This document shows positions 2,115 through 40,091 of a stretch of DNA of 64,000 bases, one piece after another. The DNA lies in NCBI GenBank assembly GCA_002862805.1, contig PKEA01000029.1, forward strand, positions 1 through 64,000, read 5' to 3'. Within the stretch, counting starts at the first letter, position 1; the number at the start of each line of letters is the position of its first letter. Source of the DNA: Flavobacteriaceae bacterium (lineage in GTDB: Bacteria > Bacteroidota > Bacteroidia > Flavobacteriales > Flavobacteriaceae). The translations under genes and the position numbers were made by a program. The notes beneath the pieces are model-generated. The model ran no database searches and was not told the DNA's origin. It saw only the letters and a list, made by a program, of their open reading frames with translations.

Positions 2115-3992
2115 ATGAGTTTATTTCAAAATACATACGATGTAATAGTAGTTGGCGGTGGTCACGCTGGTTCCGAAGCGGCAGCTTCGGCGGCAAATTT
2201 AGGCTGCTCTACCCTATTGGTTACAATGAATATACAAAACATTGCACAAATGTCGTGTAATCCTGCTATGGGAGGAATTGCAAAGGGACAAATTGTAAGA
2301 GAGATTGATGCGCTTGGAGGTTATTCTGGAATTGTTTCGGATGCTTCAGCAATTCAATTCAAAATGTTGAACAAATCAAAAGGTCCTGCAATGTGGTCTC
2401 CACGAGTTCAAAGCGATAGAATGAAGTTTGCTGAAGAATGGAGAATGATGTTGGAAGGAACGCCTAATTTGGATTTTTATCAAGAAATGGTTTCTGGAAT
2501 TTTAACTGAGAACGGAAAAGTTGTGGGTGTAAAAACATCCTTAGGACAAATTATAAAAGCCAAAACAGTCGTTCTTACAAATGGAACTTTCTTAAATGGT
2601 TTAATGCATATTGGCGATAAACAATTTGGAGGTGGTCGTGCTGGTGAAGGTGCTGCTTTCGGAATTACCGAAGATTTGGTTAAGTTAGGTTTTGAATCGG
2701 GTAGAATGAAAACAGGAACACCTCCTCGTGTAGATGGTCGTTCTTTGGATTATTCTAAAATGATAGAACAACCTGGTGATACAATCCCGGAAAAATTCTC
2801 TTATTTAGAAAGTTCTAAAGCTTTAACAGATCAGCGTTCTTGTTGGATGACCTATACCTCTCCAGAAGTTCATGATTTACTTCGTGAAGGATTTGATCGC
2901 AGTCCTATGTTTAATGGTAGAATAAAAAGTATTGGCCCAAGATATTGTCCTTCTATTGAAGATAAAATTAATCGTTTTGCAGATAAAGACAGACATCAAT
3001 TATTTGTGGAGCCAGAAGGATGGAATACATGCGAAATGTATGTAAACGGATTTTCAACTTCTCTACCTGAAGAGGTTCAATTTAAAGCGATGCGTTCTGT
3101 AGCTGGTTTTGAAAATGTGAAATTCTTTAGACCGGGTTATGCAATTGAATACGATTATTTCCCACCTACTCAATTGAAACATACTTTAGAAACTAAGTTA
3201 GTTGAAGGTTTATTTTTTGCTGGACAAATAAATGGAACTACAGGATATGAAGAAGCAGCTTCTCAAGGTTTAATGGCAGGTATAAATGCGGCTTTAAAAG
3301 TGCAAGAAAAAGAACCATTCGTTTTAAAACGTAATGAAGCTTATATAGGTGTTCTGATTGATGATTTAATTACTAAAGGTACAGAAGAACCATATCGAAT
3401 GTTTACTTCTCGTGCCGAATATAGAACTCTATTGCGTCAAGATAATGCTGATTTTAGATTAACACCAAAAGGTCACGCTTTAGGTTTGGCTTCTGAAGAA
3501 CGATTGATTCGTATGGAAAAGAAACTTTCTCAATCAAATGAAATGGTTAACTTTTTTAGAGAAACAAGTATTAAACCAGAAGAGGCAAATCCGGTTTTAG
3601 AAGAAAAAGGATCTTCACCAATGGCTCAACCTGATAAAATGTTTAAAGTACTTTCTCGTCCTCAAATTGATTTAGACGATTTTCTTAAGTTTAAAAAAGT
3701 GGCAGCTTATGTTGCGGAAAGAAATTTAGATAGAGAAGTAATTAAACAAGCGGAAATTCAAGTGAAGTATTCTGGTTATATTGAAAAAGAGAAAAATCAT
3801 GCAGATAAATTGAATCGTTTAGAAGATGCAATTATTCCTGAGAATTTTGATTTCGATAAAATTAAATCTATTTCAATTGAAGCAAAACAAAAGCTAAATA
3901 AAATCAGACCAAAAACAATTGCCCAAGCTTCTCGTATAAGTGGTGTTTCACCAAGTGATATTTCGGTCTTATTAATTCATATGGGACGATAA
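2115..3992 (+). CDS. mnmG: tRNA uridine-5-carboxymethylaminomethyl modification enzyme MnmG (GidA)
   Basis: A 625-residue FAD protein that works with the GTPase MnmE to install cmnm5 modifications at wobble U34 of certain tRNAs. The N-terminal dinucleotide-binding motif GGGHAG is at residues 14-19. The family signatures are present: CNPAMGGIAKG near residues 47-57 and GPRYCPSIEDK near 275-285, which includes the conserved Cys. The length is normal for the family. ATG 2115 follows parS site 2 directly, and the beta-alpha-beta FAD fold begins seven residues later, which supports this start. mnmG is frequently origin-linked and next to par genes in bacteria; here it is flanked by parS sites, though parA and parB are not in the window. 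Confidence 0.97.
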   Translation: MSLFQNTYDVIVVGGGHAGSEAAASAANLGCSTLLVTMNIQNIAQMSCNPAMGGIAKGQIVREIDALGGYSGIVSDASAIQFKMLNKSKGPAMWSPRVQSDRMKFAEEWRMMLEGTPNLDFYQEMVSGILTENGKVVGVKTSLGQIIKAKTVVLTNGTFLNGLMHIGDKQFGGGRAGEGAAFGITEDLVKLGFESGRMKTGTPPRVDGRSLDYSKMIEQPGDTIPEKFSYLESSKALTDQRSCWMTYTSPEVHDLLREGFDRSPMFNGRIKSIGPRYCPSIEDKINRFADKDRHQLFVEPEGWNTCEMYVNGFSTSLPEEVQFKAMRSVAGFENVKFFRPGYAIEYDYFPPTQLKHTLETKLVEGLFFAGQINGTTGYEEAASQGLMAGINAALKVQEKEPFVLKRNEAYIGVLIDDLITKGTEEPYRMFTSRAEYRTLLRQDNADFRLTPKGHALGLASEERLIRMEKKLSQSNEMVNFFRETSIKPEEANPVLEEKGSSPMAQPDKMFKVLSRPQIDLDDFLKFKKVAAYVAERNLDREVIKQAEIQVKYSGYIEKEKNHADKLNRLEDAIIPENFDFDKIKSISIEAKQKLNKIRPKTIAQASRISGVSPSDISVLLIHMGR

Positions 3993-33823: not shown

Positions 33824-35140
33824 ATGGAATTAAAAGATAAATTAATATCGTCATTTATGGCATTTGAAGAAAAAATTGACACTTCTTCTTCATTACATGA
33901 TGTTCGATCTGCAGCAATAAAAAATTTCGAAAACAAAGGTTTTCCTTCTAAAAAAGAAGAAGCTTGGAAATATACTTCTTTAAATGCAGTTTTAAAGAAT
34001 GATTTTTCGGTTTTCCCAAAAAAGGAAAATGCAGTTGAATTTGCAACTGTAAAAAAATATTTTTTACACGACGTTGATACTTATAAAGTAGTTTTCGTGG
34101 ATGGAATTTTTTCTTCTTTCTTATCTTCAACAACACATGATGGATTAGATGTTTGTTTAATGTCTTCTGCCTTGAACAAACCGAAATACAAGATGGTTAT
34201 TGACGAGTATTTCAATAAAATTGCCAGCAAAGACGAAAGTTTAACAACTTTAAATACCGCATTTGCAAAAGAAGGTGCTTATATAAATGTTCCAAAAAGT
34301 AAAGTAGTAGATAAACCAATTGAAATTATTTACTTTTCAACAGGAAATGAAGCCGCTTTAATGGTTCAACCAAGAAACTTAGTAATTGTAGGAGAAAATG
34401 CTCATGTTCAAATTATTGAGCGTCATCAAAGTTTGAATAGCAATCCTGTTTTAACGAATTCAGTTACCGAAATATTTGCTCAAAAAAGAGCTATTGTAGA
34501 TTATTATAAAATTCAAAACGACGTACAAACAGCCAATTTAATTGACAATACTTACATTGCGCAAAAGCAAGAAAGTAGAGTAGCTGTACATACGTTTTCA
34601 TTTGGAGGAAATATTACACGTAATAATTTAAATTTCTATCATCAAGGTGAAAGAATTGACTCAACCTTAAAAGGAATTACAATTATTGGCGACAAACAAC
34701 ATGTTGATCATTATACTTTAGTGCAACATGCAACACCAAATTGCGAAAGTCACCAAAATTATAAAACTATTTTAAGCGACAGTTCAACAGGAGTTTTTAA
34801 CGGAAAAATTTTCGTAGAAAAAGAAGCGCAAAAAACAAATGCTTTTCAGCAAAACAATAATATTCTTCTAAGTGATAAAGCAACAATTAATGCAAAACCT
34901 CAATTAGAAATCTTTGCTGATGATGTTAAGTGTTCACATGGTTGTACCATTGGTCAATTAGACGAAAGCGCATTATTTTATATGCAACAACGTGGAATTC
35001 CTAAAAAAGAAGCTCGTGCGTTATTAATGTTTGCATTTTCTAATGAAGTAATTGAAAGTATTAAAATACCTGAATTAAAACAACGTATTACAAAAATTAT
35101 CGCAACTAAATTAGGTGTAAACTTAGGTTTCGATTTGTAG
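33824..35140 (+). CDS. sufD: Fe-S cluster assembly protein SufD
   Basis: A 438-residue SufB paralogue that pairs with SufB and binds SufC. The N-terminal segment contains FPSKKEEAWKYTSL, a hallmark of SufD. The C-terminal beta-helix region includes NGKIFVEKEAQKTNAFQ, then DDVKCSHGCTIGQLDE and QQRGIPKKEARALLMFAF, with the conserved Cys/His. The operon transcript ends shortly after this gene at a strong terminator (35158). Confidence 0.97.
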   Translation: MELKDKLISSFMAFEEKIDTSSSLHDVRSAAIKNFENKGFPSKKEEAWKYTSLNAVLKNDFSVFPKKENAVEFATVKKYFLHDVDTYKVVFVDGIFSSFLSSTTHDGLDVCLMSSALNKPKYKMVIDEYFNKIASKDESLTTLNTAFAKEGAYINVPKSKVVDKPIEIIYFSTGNEAALMVQPRNLVIVGENAHVQIIERHQSLNSNPVLTNSVTEIFAQKRAIVDYYKIQNDVQTANLIDNTYIAQKQESRVAVHTFSFGGNITRNNLNFYHQGERIDSTLKGITIIGDKQHVDHYTLVQHATPNCESHQNYKTILSDSSTGVFNGKIFVEKEAQKTNAFQQNNNILLSDKATINAKPQLEIFADDVKCSHGCTIGQLDESALFYMQQRGIPKKEARALLMFAFSNEVIESIKIPELKQRITKIIATKLGVNLGFDL

Positions 35141-35157
35141 TAATTTAGATTCATATT

Positions 35158-35196
35158 AAAACATAAAATCCGTCTTTTTGACGGATTTTATGTTTT
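35158..35196 (+). terminator. Strong Rho-independent terminator after sufD
   Basis: AAAACATAAAATCCGTC is a perfect 17-base match to the reverse complement arm GACGGATTTTATGTTTT, with a 5-T loop and a weak T-rich tail. Confidence 0.87.
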
Positions 35197-35275
35197 AAAT
35201 ATTTTTTAAAAAATACGTCATTTGCCTTATTAATTTTTGTTCCTTAAATATTTAGTTTTACAAAAAACATATATT

Positions 35276-36097
35276 ATGAATAAATTTATTTCTGCTTTTT
35301 TACTTATTGTAAGTATAAATGTAAATTCTCAAGAAAAACAAACTAAAATTTTTGCCCCTTTTAATCCAAAAGCTTTAGTTTATAAATTAGCTGACATAAA
35401 TCCAGATTTATATCAATTTAAAGGCGCAATTAAGACAATTAAGACAAATGGTTATTCAATTGAAGAGTTTGACCAAAAAGGCAGGTTAATACAGTCATTT
35501 TCAATTGATGATGAAGGACGAAAAAAAATCACAAAAAAATATATTTACACAGATGCCTTTACAATTAAAACGACTACATATGTAGATGAAGGCGGCATTA
35601 TAAATGGCGAATACAAACTAGACAAAAGTGGAAATATAATATCATACATTTATGTGGGCGGTGAAAATACACCTGATTATTATGATAAATACAATATTCG
35701 ATATGAATATAATAATGGTCTTTTAACTAAAGAAATTGTAGATGTTTCTGAAAAAGGTTATGAGCATAAAAACGAAATAACAACTTATAAATACGATGAA
35801 AAAGGAAGAGTTGTTGAGTCTCGATTTTGGTATGATGCTAACGAAGATATTGAGTTTTTAAACACTTATGACTATTCATTATTTGAAAAAAGTAAAACAA
35901 TATCGGCATTAATTGGAAATGGATATTACAGTAAAACTTACACCTATAATAACAATCTTACACTTGTAAATCAAACTGTGAAAGAAGGAGATTACTATTC
36001 TTCCGATTTTTTTGAAGGTTATAATTCCCCTATATATGACACATATGGAAATTTTATCTCTGGTTCATCAACAACAATTGTATACACATACTATTAA
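35276..36097 (+). CDS. Secreted YD/RHS-like repeat protein of unknown function
   Basis: About 273 residues from ATG 35276; the in-frame TTG at 35237 is upstream of the signal peptide and unlikely. The signal peptide is MNKFISAFLLIVSINVNSQ. The mature part contains short beta-rich repeats with Tyr and Asp/Gly turns (IEEFDQKGRLIQSF, YKYDEKGRVVESRFWYD), resembling YD/RHS-type repeats. No toxin or catalytic domain follows. It lies between the suf blocks, immediately after the sufD terminator. Confidence 0.72.
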   Translation: MNKFISAFLLIVSINVNSQEKQTKIFAPFNPKALVYKLADINPDLYQFKGAIKTIKTNGYSIEEFDQKGRLIQSFSIDDEGRKKITKKYIYTDAFTIKTTTYVDEGGIINGEYKLDKSGNIISYIYVGGENTPDYYDKYNIRYEYNNGLLTKEIVDVSEKGYEHKNEITTYKYDEKGRVVESRFWYDANEDIEFLNTYDYSLFEKSKTISALIGNGYYSKTYTYNNNLTLVNQTVKEGDYYSSDFFEGYNSPIYDTYGNFISGSSTTIVYTYY

Positions 36098-36144
36098 AAT
36101 AGTATTCTAAATATTAGGTTTAAAAATTTGGAGTATATTTTGGT

Positions 36145-37782
36145 TTAAATTTTAACAAATACGATTTCTTTTACAGAACCATCGCAAGATAATAGCATTA
36201 CAGAAATTTCATTTTTATCATTTCTAGTAAAATGATATAATGTTCTGTCATTATTACCAAATTCATCTTTTTGAACGGTTGATAATGGAATGTTTTCATG
36301 GTTTCTGTAAGACAAATGTAAAACCCCATCTTTTTCGTAAAAGTTGTAGGTTACATCTAACTCATTGGAATAAAACTTTCCAACAAACTCTTTTGTGTTA
36401 ACTGATTCAGAGTCTACAAAAACTGCTCTTTTAAAATAAAAAGGTGTTCCTCCAAAAGTGATAACTAAATCATGCTTTTCGTTTTTAGTAAAATCATATT
36501 TAACACTTTCACTATTTATCCTGTGGAATTTATTTTTTTCAAAACCTTTTAATGCGATTGAATTTTTTGCTCTTGCGCCTTTAGATTTTAATGTGTCATT
36601 TTCAAATAGAATTTCCATTTTCATGTCGCTGTTAATTTCTTTGTATTGCCCAACGAAAAGTTTAAAATCTTTTGATTTTACTTTAAAATTCTTGTTTGTT
36701 GTTTCTTTTTTTACTTCTGTTTTAGGAATAAAAATATCTAGTATGTCGTAAGAAATAGGCGTTGGATTAATAGATTCTAAATTGGTTATTAGTATTACGC
36801 CTAATTTTTTTTCTGGAATTGTTATTAATTGCGATTGACCTCCCCAGCCATAACCGCTATGACTAACAGTTTTTAAACCTTTATAATCATCAACCATTAC
36901 ACCACGAGCATATTTTGCTTTTTCGCCAGACGGAAGTGTTTCTAAAGTAGTTAGAAAGTGTGATAATTCAATAAATTCTGCGTTATCTCCATTTAGCATA
37001 TTAATCCACAATGCCATATCTTTTATGGTTGAGCCCATGCTTCCAGCACCATAACTTATTTGTGTTCTCGGCATTTGTATGTAGCCCTCTTTTGTTTTTT
37101 GATATCCTACAGCCTTATTTTTAATGATGGTGTTGTTCTCTATTCGTACTAAAGTATTGTTCATTCCTAAAGGAATAAACAGTTTTTCTTTAGCAAATTC
37201 ATGTAAGTTTTTATTAGAAATTCGCTCAATAACTAACGTAAGTAAATTGTAAGAAGTGTTACCATAAAGCACTTTTTCGCCAGGAAGATTGGTCATGTTT
37301 TTCTGCTTACATGCAATATCGTAAACCGTTTGATTATCATAATATTCTTTATCATAATCAAAGCCGGCTAAGTACATCGATGAATGATAATCTCTGAAGC
37401 CACTTGTGTGATTTAGTAAGTGTCTAATCTTAATTATGTTTTTCTTCTTTGGTAATTCAGGAAGAAAAGTTCTAATATCATCGTCTAAACTTAGCTTATT
37501 TTCTTTTATCAGTGCCCAAGCACAAGCTGCTGTAAATTGTTTTGCAATTGACGCAATGCTAAACACGGTAGAATCTGAATTTTTTATATTGTATTCCAAA
37601 GTTGCTAGTCCTATGCCTTTCGAATAAATTATTTTGCCATCTTTTATTATCCCAATTCCTAATCCTGGTGCATTTGGTTGCTCGTATTTTTGTAAAATAG
37701 AATCTATTTTCGAATTGATATTTTGCCCAAAAGTTGCTAATGAACTTATAAAAAAAATGCTAATTATAGTTAATCTAATCAT
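36145..37782 (-). CDS. Serine hydrolase of the beta-lactamase/class C penicillin-binding family
   Basis: A 545-residue exported protein; signal peptide ends near FGQ (about residue 20). The active-site Ser-x-x-Lys appears as SIASIAKQF (about residues 74-82), the YxN motif as YGNTSYN near residue 180, and the third motif as HSGYGWGG. These mark the beta-lactamase/D-alanyl-D-alanine carboxypeptidase-like family. A ~190-residue C-terminal beta-rich extension follows. Substrates may be peptidoglycan peptides or esters. Its start overlaps the stop of the 59-residue gene by four bases (ATGA), so translation is probably coupled to the PadR operon. Confidence 0.88.
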   Translation of the reverse strand: MIRLTIISIFFISSLATFGQNINSKIDSILQKYEQPNAPGLGIGIIKDGKIIYSKGIGLATLEYNIKNSDSTVFSIASIAKQFTAACAWALIKENKLSLDDDIRTFLPELPKKKNIIKIRHLLNHTSGFRDYHSSMYLAGFDYDKEYYDNQTVYDIACKQKNMTNLPGEKVLYGNTSYNLLTLVIERISNKNLHEFAKEKLFIPLGMNNTLVRIENNTIIKNKAVGYQKTKEGYIQMPRTQISYGAGSMGSTIKDMALWINMLNGDNAEFIELSHFLTTLETLPSGEKAKYARGVMVDDYKGLKTVSHSGYGWGGQSQLITIPEKKLGVILITNLESINPTPISYDILDIFIPKTEVKKETTNKNFKVKSKDFKLFVGQYKEINSDMKMEILFENDTLKSKGARAKNSIALKGFEKNKFHRINSESVKYDFTKNEKHDLVITFGGTPFYFKRAVFVDSESVNTKEFVGKFYSNELDVTYNFYEKDGVLHLSYRNHENIPLSTVQKDEFGNNDRTLYHFTRNDKNEISVMLLSCDGSVKEIVFVKI

Positions 37783-37958
37783 GCCTTTGTAGTTTTATAT
37801 TTCTGATAAAAGTAAGTTGGTATCAATCCGAAGTTTAAAAGGAGAAAGCCTGCAAACACAATCATTCCTCTGTAAGGCCAATGAAGAAATTCAAACATTG
37901 CACCAATTCCCAATATAAATGTGGTTAAAAAACCTAGTATATAAAATGATTTTGTCAT
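37779..37958 (-). CDS. Small two-helix membrane protein (59 residues) with GldL-like HWP motif
   Basis: A 59-residue frame with ATG at 37958 and TGA at 37781-37779. It begins MTKSFYILGFLTTFILG and contains FEFLHWPYRGMIVFAG, predicting two transmembrane helices with a short loop, and ends with a basic tail. The GxxFxxxHWPxxxxL pattern resembles the N-terminal part of GldL and of other small Bacteroidetes membrane proteins; a related pattern (FKLNKWPYSSLLL) is present in the neighbouring 146-residue protein. The start is 2 bases from the upstream stop, and the stop overlaps the hydrolase ATG in an ATGA, so this gene is almost certainly translated. Confidence 0.78.
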   Translation of the reverse strand: MTKSFYILGFLTTFILGIGAMFEFLHWPYRGMIVFAGFLLLNFGLIPTYFYQKYKTTKA

Positions 37959-37960
37959 GA

Positions 37961-38401
37961 TTATCTATTGGTTAAAATTGTTTTTTGATAAGAGCGCTTG
38001 TATTTGTTATAGAATGCGAATGGAATCGTCACGAAAATTAAAAGCGCAAATCCTGTGGCTAACAATAAACTTGAATAAGGCCATTTGTTTAGTTTGAATA
38101 AAAACCCTAATGCTAAAAGCATTATGTTAAAAGAAGAAACCATGTAAAAAGCTCGTTTTCTTGCTAGAAATGATTGTATTAATTTTTTTTCATCCTTTTC
38201 TTTTTGAATAATTTGCATAGCTGCATATCCGCCAAGTTTTTCAATTGCTTCTTTATAAGCCAATTCAAAAGTTTCGTGAGTTGAATTTTCTATATGTGTA
38301 CAAATATGATCTAACAAATCTTCTTTTAAAATAACATTTGTAATTCCATAAAAAGACAAAGTAGTTTCAATGTATTCTATATTTTTATCCGTAATTATCA
38401 T
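37961..38401 (-). CDS. HAAS-like signalling domain membrane protein
   Basis: A 146-residue protein. The N-terminal ~75 residues are helical and contain LLDHICTHIENSTHETFELA, a pattern found in the HAAS (DUF1700-like) modules that accompany PadR regulators. After a Lys/Glu linker come two membrane helices near residues 88-130, with the motif LGFLFKLNKWPYSSLLLATG. Such proteins are thought to act as partners of PadR-type regulators in envelope signalling. The start codon overlaps the padR stop by four bases (ATGA). Confidence 0.75.
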   Translation of the reverse strand: MIITDKNIEYIETTLSFYGITNVILKEDLLDHICTHIENSTHETFELAYKEAIEKLGGYAAMQIIQKEKDEKKLIQSFLARKRAFYMVSSFNIMLLALGFLFKLNKWPYSSLLLATGFALLIFVTIPFAFYNKYKRSYQKTILTNR

Positions 38402-38736
38402 GATGTAGTGGTTTTAGCATTAAAAATAAGATTCAATGTGTTAATAAAATCATTAAGTTCTGCTGTCATTTCCACAATTGCCAATTTCCCTGAAGCAGTA
38501 ATTTGATAATATTTACGAACACGTTTACCAAAAAATACTTTTTCCGTTTCTAAAATACCATCTGCCTCAAGTTTATGAAGAATAGGATATAGTGCACCTT
38601 CAGAAATGTCTATTTTCCCTTGAGTGAGTTCTTTTACTCTTTGCGTAATTTCATAGCCATACATTTTATCGTTTTCACTGATCAACTTTAAAATAATTGG
38701 CAATAATGTTCCTTTGGTTAGTTCTTTGCTATACAT
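38398..38736 (-). CDS. PadR family transcriptional regulator
   Basis: About 112 residues from ATG 38736. The longer frame to 38781 adds a segment unlike PadR proteins and would run through the promoter. The winged-helix signature is visible: MYSKELTKGTLLPIILKLI, then YGYEITQRV and ISEGALYPILHKLE. The last helix, for dimerisation, is short. PadR proteins usually repress, by binding to inverted repeats, and respond to small ligands. A matching operator candidate overlaps its own promoter, so autoregulation is likely. It heads a coupled operon with the HAAS-like, 59-residue and hydrolase genes. Confidence 0.92.
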   Translation of the reverse strand: MYSKELTKGTLLPIILKLISENDKMYGYEITQRVKELTQGKIDISEGALYPILHKLEADGILETEKVFFGKRVRKYYQITASGKLAIVEMTAELNDFINTLNLIFNAKTTTS

Positions 38737-38772
38737 TTTACAAATATACATTTTATTCCAATGTATTGTAAA
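38737..38772 (-). promoter_or_regulatory. padR promoter and candidate PadR operator
   Basis: ATACAT (38746-38751) and ATGTAT (38761-38766) form an inverted repeat with a 9-base spacer, flanked by TTTACA and TGTAAA. On the minus strand TATATTTG (38748-38741) is a full -7 match inside this repeat and ends four bases before the padR ATG. Repressor binding here would block the promoter. Confidence 0.6.
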
Positions 38773-38850
38773 AAAATGCAAATTATTTTTTTGAGCTAAT
38801 TTTCAGTAGATTTTAACCTTTATTTATTCCAATTTTAAATAATCAAATTG

Positions 38851-38858
38851 TAAATTTG
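38851..38858 (+). promoter_or_regulatory. Promoter -7 element of the sufS block
   Basis: TAAATTTG matches TAnnTTTG and lies 18 bases before the sufS ATG. It gives the second suf block its own promoter. Confidence 0.55.
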
Positions 38859-38876
38859 TACACAAATTGATTTATA

Positions 38877-40091
38877 ATGTTTGATGTTCAAAAAATAAGA
38901 GCCGATTTTCCAATTCTTTCACAAATAGTGAATGGAAAACCGTTGGTTTATTTCGATAATGGAGCAACGGCCCAAAAGCCGCAAGTGGTAATTGATGCTA
39001 TTTCTAAATATTATAGCGAAATAAATGCTAATATTCATCGAGGTGTTCATACATTGAGCCAATTAGCCACAGATGCTTATGAAGCGTCGAGAAACACCAT
39101 TCAAGCTCATTTAAACGCAAAACACAACCACGAAATAATTTTTACTTCAGGAACGACTTTCGGGATTAATTTGGTAGCAAATGGTTTCGCAAGTTTATTA
39201 AATGCTGATGATGAGGTTATGGTTTCGGCATTAGAACACCATAGTAATATTGTTCCTTGGCAGTTTTTATGTGAAAAAACAGGAGCAAAGTTGGTAGTTA
39301 TTCCAATGAATGATGAAGGAGAATTGGTTATGTCTGAATTTGATAAATTACTATCTACTAAAACCAAAGTTGTTGCTGTAAATCACATTTCAAATGCATT
39401 AGGAACGGTTAACCCAATTGAATATATTATTGAAAAAGCACATGGAGTAGGAGCGGCTGTTTTAATTGATGGAGCTCAGTCAACACCTCATTTACGACCA
39501 GATGTCCAAGCTTTAGATTGTGATTTCTATGTTTTTTCTGGACACAAAGTGTGCGGGCCAACTGGTGTAGGAATTCTTTATGGTAAAGAAGCTTGGCTTA
39601 ATAAATTACCACCTTATCTTGGCGGTGGTGAAATGATTAAGGAAGTAACTTTCGAAAAAACTACTTATGCCGACTTACCTCATAAATTTGAAGCCGGAAC
39701 GCCAAATATAGCTGCAGGAATTGTATTAGGAACTGCAATTGACTACATGAATAACATAGGTTTTGATGCTATTGCTAATTATGAACAAGAATTATTGGAC
39801 TACGGAACCAAAAGATTATTAGAAATTGAAGGGTTAAAAATTTACGGAACGAGTAAAAATAAAGCTTCGGTAATTTCTTTTAATATTGAAGGAATTCACC
39901 CTTACGATATTGGCACGATTATAGATAAATTAGGTATAGCGGTTAGAACCGGCCATCATTGTGCACAACCTATTATGAGTTATTATAATATTCCAGGTAC
40001 AATACGAGCAAGTTTCGCTTTTTATAATACCAAAGAAGAAATTGATATCTTTGTAGAAGCGGTTAAAAAAGCACAAATGATGTTATCTTAA
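38877..40091 (+). CDS. sufS: Cysteine desulfurase SufS
   Basis: A 404-residue PLP-dependent enzyme that converts cysteine to alanine and passes persulfide sulfur to SufE. The PLP lysine lies in FSGHKVCGPTGVG (about residue 225). The catalytic Cys is in RTGHHCAQPIM (about residue 362), in the short-loop context of type II (SufS) desulfurases. The N-terminal VYFDNGATAQKPQ is typical. It heads the second suf block, separated from sufD by about 3.7 kb. Confidence 0.97.
   Translation: MFDVQKIRADFPILSQIVNGKPLVYFDNGATAQKPQVVIDAISKYYSEINANIHRGVHTLSQLATDAYEASRNTIQAHLNAKHNHEIIFTSGTTFGINLVANGFASLLNADDEVMVSALEHHSNIVPWQFLCEKTGAKLVVIPMNDEGELVMSEFDKLLSTKTKVVAVNHISNALGTVNPIEYIIEKAHGVGAAVLIDGAQSTPHLRPDVQALDCDFYVFSGHKVCGPTGVGILYGKEAWLNKLPPYLGGGEMIKEVTFEKTTYADLPHKFEAGTPNIAAGIVLGTAIDYMNNIGFDAIANYEQELLDYGTKRLLEIEGLKIYGTSKNKASVISFNIEGIHPYDIGTIIDKLGIAVRTGHHCAQPIMSYYNIPGTIRASFAFYNTKEEIDIFVEAVKKAQMMLS

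Follow-up and report, generated by a model that had tools for sequence, protein, structure and literature searches.

Genes and features of the locus

We analysed 64,000 nucleotides of a Flavobacteriaceae genome (contig PKEA01000029.1; the whole stretch is called the window below), in which four genes at 36145-38736, all on the minus strand, form an operon that is headed by a PadR-family regulator gene and contains a 59-codon gene for a small membrane protein. Sequence comparisons indicate that this protein and the C-terminus of its larger neighbour are two-helix hairpins related to GldL, a protein of the motor for type IX secretion and gliding, and that in relatives across Bacteroidia, which carry two hairpins in one longer gene, a conserved internal methionine codon may provide the small form.

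The first gene, padR (38398-38736), encodes a 112-residue regulator starting at MYSKEL, with the PadR winged-helix domain (Pfam PadR PF03551, E = 2.4e-22; 79.1 bits against a cut-off of 27). It is followed by a gene that we call HAAS-like (37961-38401), for a 146-residue membrane protein made of an N-terminal domain (N-domain) and a GldL-type hairpin; by the 59-residue gene (37779-37958), whose product is a stand-alone GldL-type two-helix membrane hairpin without the N-domain; and by a serine hydrolase gene (36145-37782; 545 residues, beta-lactamase/D-aminopeptidase superfamily). The genes are tightly coupled, as an earlier note on this sequence had stated: padR and the HAAS-like gene share a four-base ATGA overlap, two bases separate the HAAS-like gene from the 59-residue frame, and that frame overlaps the hydrolase gene by another four-base ATGA. 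Before padR, on the same strand, lie a putative PadR operator (38746-38766; palindrome ATACAT-N9-ATGTAT, -30 to -10 of padR) and a putative -7 promoter element that overlaps it, TATATTTG (TAnnTTTG; 38741-38748).

Conservation of the 59-residue gene

Comparisons were made with a family-level set of genomes (Flavobacteriaceae) and a class-level set (Bacteroidia). There are 26 comparable loci, the window included, in which a PadR gene is followed by a short (138-148 residues) HAAS-like protein with one hairpin; some are close relatives (L058 and L059, L065 and L066, L069 and L070). An intact hairpin frame of 56-62 residues, starting -4 to +126 bases after the HAAS-like stop, is present in 20 of the 26 (the window, L006-L008, L012, L055-L066, L068, L070, and L071). 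The ratio of nonsynonymous to synonymous substitution rates (dN/dS) of the small gene is 0.034-0.143 (eight sequences, with dS computable for 15 of 28 pairs), the least saturated pairs giving 0.068 (dS 0.22), 0.034 (dS 0.65), and 0.052 (dS 0.72), and it lies below that of the HAAS-like gene in all 13 pairs computable for both. The 59-residue protein is 81% identical in genomes G009 and G011, where the HAAS-like protein is 45% and 56% identical.

Judged by these sequence comparisons, the 59-codon frame is a real gene under strong purifying selection and not a chance open reading frame (ORF). The earlier note, which had proposed the gene and had named a lack of conservation, or stops within the frame, as what would speak against it, was right on this point: neither applies in 20 of the 26 homologous loci. 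In library scans neither the 59-residue nor the 146-residue protein matched a curated family above threshold, and such a lack of matches could be taken to mean that the small frame is untranslated; with dN/dS as low as this, and with a position and start that 20 of 26 loci share, we regard that as scarcely credible.

Hairpins related to GldL and their fused relatives

The earlier note had observed that a motif of the 59-residue protein (FEFLHWPY) recurs in the 146-residue protein (FKLNKWPY), and had proposed that the two membrane proteins share a fold. The proposal is borne out by sequence homology: the proteins have 20 of 55 residues identical (36%; BLASTP, single comparison, E = 5e-12), and in a six-frame search of the genome with the 59-residue protein the C-terminus of the HAAS-like protein is the second match (E = 6.7e-9). 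Matches to the Pfam family GldL_N are weak for the single proteins (E = 0.012, below the cut-off, for the 59-residue protein and E = 0.0076 for the 146-residue protein), and at E <= 1 are found in 8 of 14 members of the small-protein family (best 3.5e-5) and 14 of 15 short HAAS-like members (best 2e-6); a profile of the 14 small proteins matches canonical GldL N-termini over 27 columns (probability 96.1%, E = 3e-9). From these alignments, the 59-residue protein is homologous to GldL, while falling outside GldL_N by Pfam's threshold, and the 59-residue protein and the C-terminus of the 146-residue protein are homologous GldL-type two-helix hairpins.

A profile of the N-domain matches at E <= 0.01 in 40 of 299 Flavobacteriaceae and 104 of 396 Bacteroidia genomes (the genome of the window is counted in both totals, and the family total includes more distant proteins of 200-250 residues). 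Among 29 class-level loci inspected by eye (L094-L122), 26 encode a protein of 355-431 residues in which the N-domain is fused to two hairpins, two encode single-hairpin proteins, and one has an N-domain with an M23 peptidase. In this last locus, L121 (1501-2262), the N-domain has the DH-x-C motif, follows PadR, and precedes the M23 peptidase domain, which stands in place of hairpins. When 26 fused proteins were scanned with Pfam at E <= 0.001 (25 class-level ones plus L010, with L114 left out), 24 matched GldL_N and 13 matched GldM_1st (best 8.9e-20), and in the Protein Data Bank (PDB) the fused profile matches GldM (7sau_A, 2.7e-11) and GldL (7sau_C, 5e-4), GldL first and GldM later in the chain; scores against the NCBIfam models of GldL and GldM are far below the cut-offs. 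The small-gene profile aligns with the fused-protein profile over all 59 residues (probability 98.9%, E = 1.2e-17). In the genome of the window, a single GldM_1st match reaches E <= 0.001, and it lies on contig C6, outside this locus.

At E <= 1e-30, the fused profile has matches in 89 of 396 Bacteroidia genomes. A hand count gives 45 matches, in 44 genomes, that begin at position 1-3 and extend at least to 403, and 17 others that start at 75-96, reach the end, and hence are without the N-domain; three of four such matches inspected carry a SpoIIE phosphatase after the GldM-like domain. With SpoIIE in place of the N-domain, the membrane module therefore appears to have exchangeable outputs. 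Loci L150 (408-2684), L151 (1246-3399), and L152 (1388-3457) encode a single chain with GldM_1st, SpoIIE, and GldL-like hairpins; L150 adjoins a SiaC gene, and proteins of this type have the look of sensors that derive from the motor and serve a Sia-type pathway.

Mean cross-scores of hidden Markov models among five hairpin groups are 20-64 bits, against at most 14.2 bits in 430 shuffles, and 20 hydrophobic control segments have mean scores of 0.5-2.2 bits; the one control segment that scored 42.5 bits is, by eye, a true family hairpin in L102. In this fused locus, the open frame with the additional family hairpin (2220-3209) and padR point away from each other.

What the hairpins do not share with GldL is the acidic residue of the second transmembrane helix (TM2), which is present in 5 of 5 GldL sequences versus 0 of 14 small proteins and 0 of 15 short HAAS-like hairpins; for the two hairpins of the fused proteins the counts are 0 of 24 (2 of 26 unparsed) and 1 of 26. 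In Flavobacterium johnsoniae, glutamate E49 of GldL is reported to be required for SprB secretion (PMC8986121). If the hairpins made a small proton-driven motor or an ion channel like GldLM, their homology to GldL, and that of fused relatives to GldM, would be expected. We hold this idea to be very improbable, since the glutamate required in GldL (PMC8986121) is missing from nearly all of them, and in relatives hairpins and the GldM-like part form one chain, which should forbid free rotation; we dropped it for want of the TM2 glutamate. Stand-alone GldL-like hairpins of 59-60 residues that do have a TM2 glutamate, by eye not beside padR, are encoded at L034 (1486-1665), L035 (1474-1656), and L039 (1480-1662), and are possibly mini-GldL proteins.

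An internal start in the fused genes

All 26 aligned fused proteins have a methionine (Met) before hairpin 1. In the profile alignment residue 1 of the small protein falls on the column of this internal Met, and in fused and small proteins alike the Met stands 21 residues ahead of the motif's F. A script that allowed a six-residue window found the Met in 31 of 32 parsed genes of a first set (33 genes, including the single-hairpin loci L009, L109, and L117; L105 unparsed) and in 34 of 34 of a fresh set that was picked by the fused profile, which contains the Met column (40 genes; L175, L179, L182, L183, L188, and L193 unparsed). At the exact position it found Met in 26 of 32 and 27 of 34; the 13 failures comprise L074 and the split locus L012, which are truly without Met, and 11 genes in which the script had caught an earlier motif-like stretch but the Met can be seen by eye. 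The short set of Flavobacteriaceae has Met at the exact position in 0 of 21 parsed loci (L007 was read on the wrong motif and L062 was unparsed), and in a looser window in 3 of 23 (L008, L072, and L073). Translation from the internal Met of L109, which has a single hairpin and no small gene, would give a product of 59 residues.

Synonymous codon usage around the internal Met was compared with that in the rest of the same genes for 56 fused genes (from 65, after removal at 85% identity or more). The eight codons before the Met include 21 G-ending codons where 82.1 are expected (z = -8.6), the flanking windows give z = -4.2 and -4.7, and the other ten windows -2.5 to +0.7, these z-scores being inflated by the relatedness of the sequences. 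The folding energy of 50-nucleotide windows is -1.13 kcal/mol at offset -15 from the Met and -2.41 at 0, as against -3.4 to -11.3 at other offsets; synonymous shuffles average -2.23 and -3.26, so that the real sequences are less structured (z = +4.4 and +3.8), with z = +1.5 at +15. At the same site in the split lineage, codon z is +1.3 (22 genes) and folding z is +0.5 and -0.2 (23 genes). A at -3, -6, -12, and -13, which are positive determinants of initiation in F. johnsoniae according to PMC6847099, precedes the internal Met in 59, 18, 75, and 95% of genes, and precedes 19 small-gene starts in 63, 47, 89, and 63%. Taken together, these sequence signatures are strong evidence, though not proof, of internal initiation at this Met.

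Alternatively, the internal Met may be a relic of fusion or something that the membrane helix needs, with no second product made and with the 59-residue gene encoding an ordinary accessory protein: a Met at that site is what the joining of a once separate hairpin gene would leave behind, the stretch before a membrane helix may have codon preferences of its own, and the split set needs no Met there. We consider this rather unlikely. Met is kept in 65 of 66 parsed fused genes, whereas a relic would be expected to drift to Leu or Ile; the signals lie in synonymous sites and RNA folding and are centred on this codon; and they are missing both toward hairpin 2 (codon windows +32 to +55, the last computed, z = -0.05 to -1.0) and in the split lineage, which has the same topology.

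How the separate small gene arose is harder to trace, as a tree of 86 hairpins has low resolution. Simple fission of a two-hairpin protein was rejected, because the tree does not pair short HAAS-like hairpins with hairpin 1 and small proteins with hairpin 2: 12 of 15 short HAAS-like hairpins cluster with hairpin 2 at support 0.85, and another cluster (support 0.88) unites the small proteins with the hairpins from L009, where an internal Met is present, and L007, where it is absent. On this poorly resolved tree, a better guess than fission is that an internal-start hairpin was duplicated and the Met then lost.

The N-domain of the HAAS-like protein

In alignments, the 146-residue protein has a helical N-domain of about 75 residues with a D-H-x-C motif, which would be cytoplasmic, followed by the GldL-type hairpin. 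The motif (D31-H32-x-C34, window 38300-38311) is invariant in 31 of 31 aligned sequences. An AlphaFold2 model (mean predicted local distance difference test score 85) has helices at 5-17, 23-39, and 45-55, a break at 56-57, and then a long helix, and has no GxP; the hallmark of HAAS domains is three helices of which the third is kinked at a GxP motif. A PadR homologue adjoins 23 of 23 short loci and 30 of 31 class-level loci (L094-L122, L010, and L011, with L112 the sole exception; the window is not counted).

The earlier note had taken this protein for a HAAS relative, and here it found no support, in that neither the Pfam HAAS model nor a profile of Bacteroidia HAAS hits matches the N-domain. 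None of 15 short members matches PF22564 (HAAS) or DUF1700 at E <= 1, and the N-domain profile against 19 Bacteroidia PF22564 hits has a probability of 0.6%, that is, no match. Two relatives match perm_prefix_1 weakly (E = 0.0013 and 0.0032, below the cut-off), a structure search gave no HAAS structure among the matches listed, and a PDB search with the N-domain profile gave nothing (best E = 0.29). On the whole, the tight operon, the real small gene, and the shared fold of the earlier note stand and the HAAS identity is unsupported, while the GldL type of the hairpins and the fused units with their internal Met had been missed.

A candidate operator before padR

The palindrome ATACAT-N9-ATGTAT has its best centre at -20 both in 24 short loci (the window included) and in the 14 class-level loci whose PadR start fits the search pattern. 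At that centre 0.85 of the six pairs are complementary, against medians over all centres of 0.37 and 0.32. The commonest inner pairs differ between the sets, T-A in one and A-T in the other, so that the bases vary and the symmetry persists; of the 38 loci, L057 and L122 are out of register. This conserved symmetry suggests putative autoregulation by PadR. Only two exact copies occur in the genome, and both precede padR genes (the second named by eye); since we estimate that about 1.4 copies are expected by chance, it is their position and not their number that counts as evidence. The second locus in the same genome (L124, G000:C50, 1501-2511) has the exact palindrome, a gene that looks PadR-like by eye, and a gene whose 208-residue product contains a related DH motif and matches nothing in Pfam.

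A TAnnTTTG box at -12 to -5 overlaps the right arm of the palindrome in 18 of 24 short and 12 of 14 class-level loci. In Flavobacterium psychrophilum, such boxes are placed at -12 to -5 from the transcription start (PMC9723704), which would put the start here at or beside the A of the padR ATG and make the message near-leaderless; leaderless messages are given there as rare in that species (5.5%; PMC9723704). Starts that would make padR longer than from MYSKEL would lie upstream of this predicted transcription start. A scan for consensus sigma-70 promoters was uninformative (20 sites against 17.7 expected, and no terminators).

The serine hydrolase and the genomic setting

The hydrolase (PF00144, E = 2.2e-53; PDB 2qmi, 8.5e-38) has the motifs SxxK (S78-x-x-K81), YxN (Y173-x-N175), and HxG (H308-x-G310), and is probably exported, a signal peptide having been judged by eye. 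It lies directly 3' of the operon's other genes in 13 of the 26 loci. A weaker homologue lies upstream of padR in L060, and a distant one is found further downstream in L009. The four-gene operon claimed by the earlier note is thus real in the window, while its last member is directly downstream in half of the loci; by this distribution, the hydrolase gene is a probable target of the PadR operon, though not in every locus. The ATGA overlap could mean that the 59-residue protein serves the hydrolase, as a coupling leader, secretion helper, or inhibitor, and not PadR signalling. This seems improbable, as nine loci with the small gene have no hydrolase downstream in the stretch examined (L008, L012, and L060-L066), L072 has a hydrolase without the small gene, and relatives of the small protein are fused to the PadR-linked N-domain.

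The ORFs that flank the operon (window 33824-40091), on the strand opposite to it, resemble sufD and sufS by eye, a setting seen by eye also in several Flavobacterium relatives. A role in Fe-S assembly (Suf) was dropped because in L007, L008, and L060-L066 the operon, by eye, lies elsewhere than between sufD and sufS. Between the sufD-like gene and the operon is a 286-residue ORF (35237-36097) with no Pfam match at E <= 1, apart from a faint YD-repeat signal (E = 0.25).

A two-form envelope sensor

Drawing on the sequence evidence for the genes, the hairpin homology, the conservation of and selection on the small gene, the palindrome, the signatures at the internal Met, and the loss of the glutamate, we hypothesize that the locus is probably a self-repressing PadR operon encoding an envelope sensor, in which GldL-type hairpins come in two forms and the hydrolase is, here, an effector. 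PadR would bind the palindrome in its own promoter and repress the operon; the 146-residue form would carry a cytoplasmic N-domain that contacts PadR, while the 59-residue form would be bare. The hairpins would assemble jointly in the inner membrane, an envelope signal would alter the assembly, and the N-domain would then release or capture PadR and so switch the operon, the bare hairpin setting the number of N-domains per assembly by diluting the regulator-binding chain. The exported hydrolase would be one regulated effector in this lineage, and in fused relatives both forms would come from one gene, from the full-length start and the conserved internal start. More broadly, we put at about even odds the reading that PadR-linked versions make two membrane products, from an internal start in fused genes or, in Flavobacterium and its relatives, from a separate 59-residue gene, and that throughout Bacteroidia a module derived from GldL-GldM has become a non-rotary envelope receptor whose cytoplasmic output, the N-domain that partners PadR or a SpoIIE phosphatase, is exchangeable, with the ratio of the two products setting its stoichiometry or gain.

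Several observations weigh against this hypothesis. The small gene was not found in 5 of the 26 loci (L009, L072, L073, L109, and L117) and is broken near its start in L069. In structure comparisons, GldL is among the matches of the 146-residue hairpin only at Foldseek probability 0.85 and E = 4.2, the hairpin aligns with GldL (VIA Z 6.9, root-mean-square deviation 4.2, 64 aligned) no better than with unrelated helical chains (Z to 7.9), and the search with the 59-residue model gave no GldL among the matches listed. The N-domain, matching neither HAAS model nor profile, leaves HAAS membership unproven. L074 is a fused protein without the internal Met; L008 has its own small gene yet also a Met nearby, at -23; and L072 and L073, both without the small gene, have no Met at exactly -21, so that a pattern of "internal Met or small gene" fits them only through a Met at -24, noticed post hoc and by eye. 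A at -6, the fourth published determinant, precedes just 18% of internal Mets, and shuffle z-scores of folding are -0.7 to -5.6 in ten other windows, the positive sign being peculiar to the Met site. The codon signal is absent after the annotated N-domain ORF start (z = -1.2; start found in 30 of 56 genes), and thus the codon test is not a general start marker here; the inflation of its z-scores and the way in which the fresh set was picked count on the same side.

The closest known systems each share part of this design. HAAS-PadR dyads, like the locus here, place a PadR gene beside a membrane protein with a small helical N-domain, and have been proposed as an alternative to two-component signalling in envelope stress; they differ in that HAAS models do not match the N-domain here, which has no GxP motif, and the main text of their description contains neither "Gld" nor "gliding", listing uncharacterised fusions with two, four, and six transmembrane helices beside named ones (PMC11237479). 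In Listeria, LltR-Lmo0600-Lmo0601 likewise joins a PadR repressor of its own operon to a membrane protein (DUF1700) and a predicted exoprotein, but the membrane part is another one and no bare second copy is described in that account; LstR and LltR mainly regulate their own membrane-protein operons, with envelope-active compounds assumed as signals (PMC6624303). If the locus here works in an analogous way, its assembly would sense the state of the envelope and be linked to PadR through the N-domain. The GldL-GldM motor, as presented in PMC8986121, shares the hairpin motif and, with fused relatives, the first periplasmic domain of GldM in the same order, whereas the hairpins here have no TM2 glutamate and the relatives are one polypeptide linked to PadR or SpoIIE. 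In PorX-PorL a regulatory protein also meets the cytoplasmic side of a GldL homologue, but the CheY-like PorX acts on a real motor, and that report describes no PadR or small hairpin gene (PMC5005315). We found no published description of a PadR/GldL-type two-product design in the open literature, a search that did not cover subscription papers and preprints.

The analysis adds a candidate PadR operator and gives reason to annotate the 59-residue gene and the internal starts, and it yields a testable rule: the bare membrane subunit has either an internal start or a gene of its own as its source. If the rule is true, a regulator family spread over Bacteroidia would have a hidden second protein, and parts of a rotary motor would have been reused as a sensor without the proton-carrying residue.

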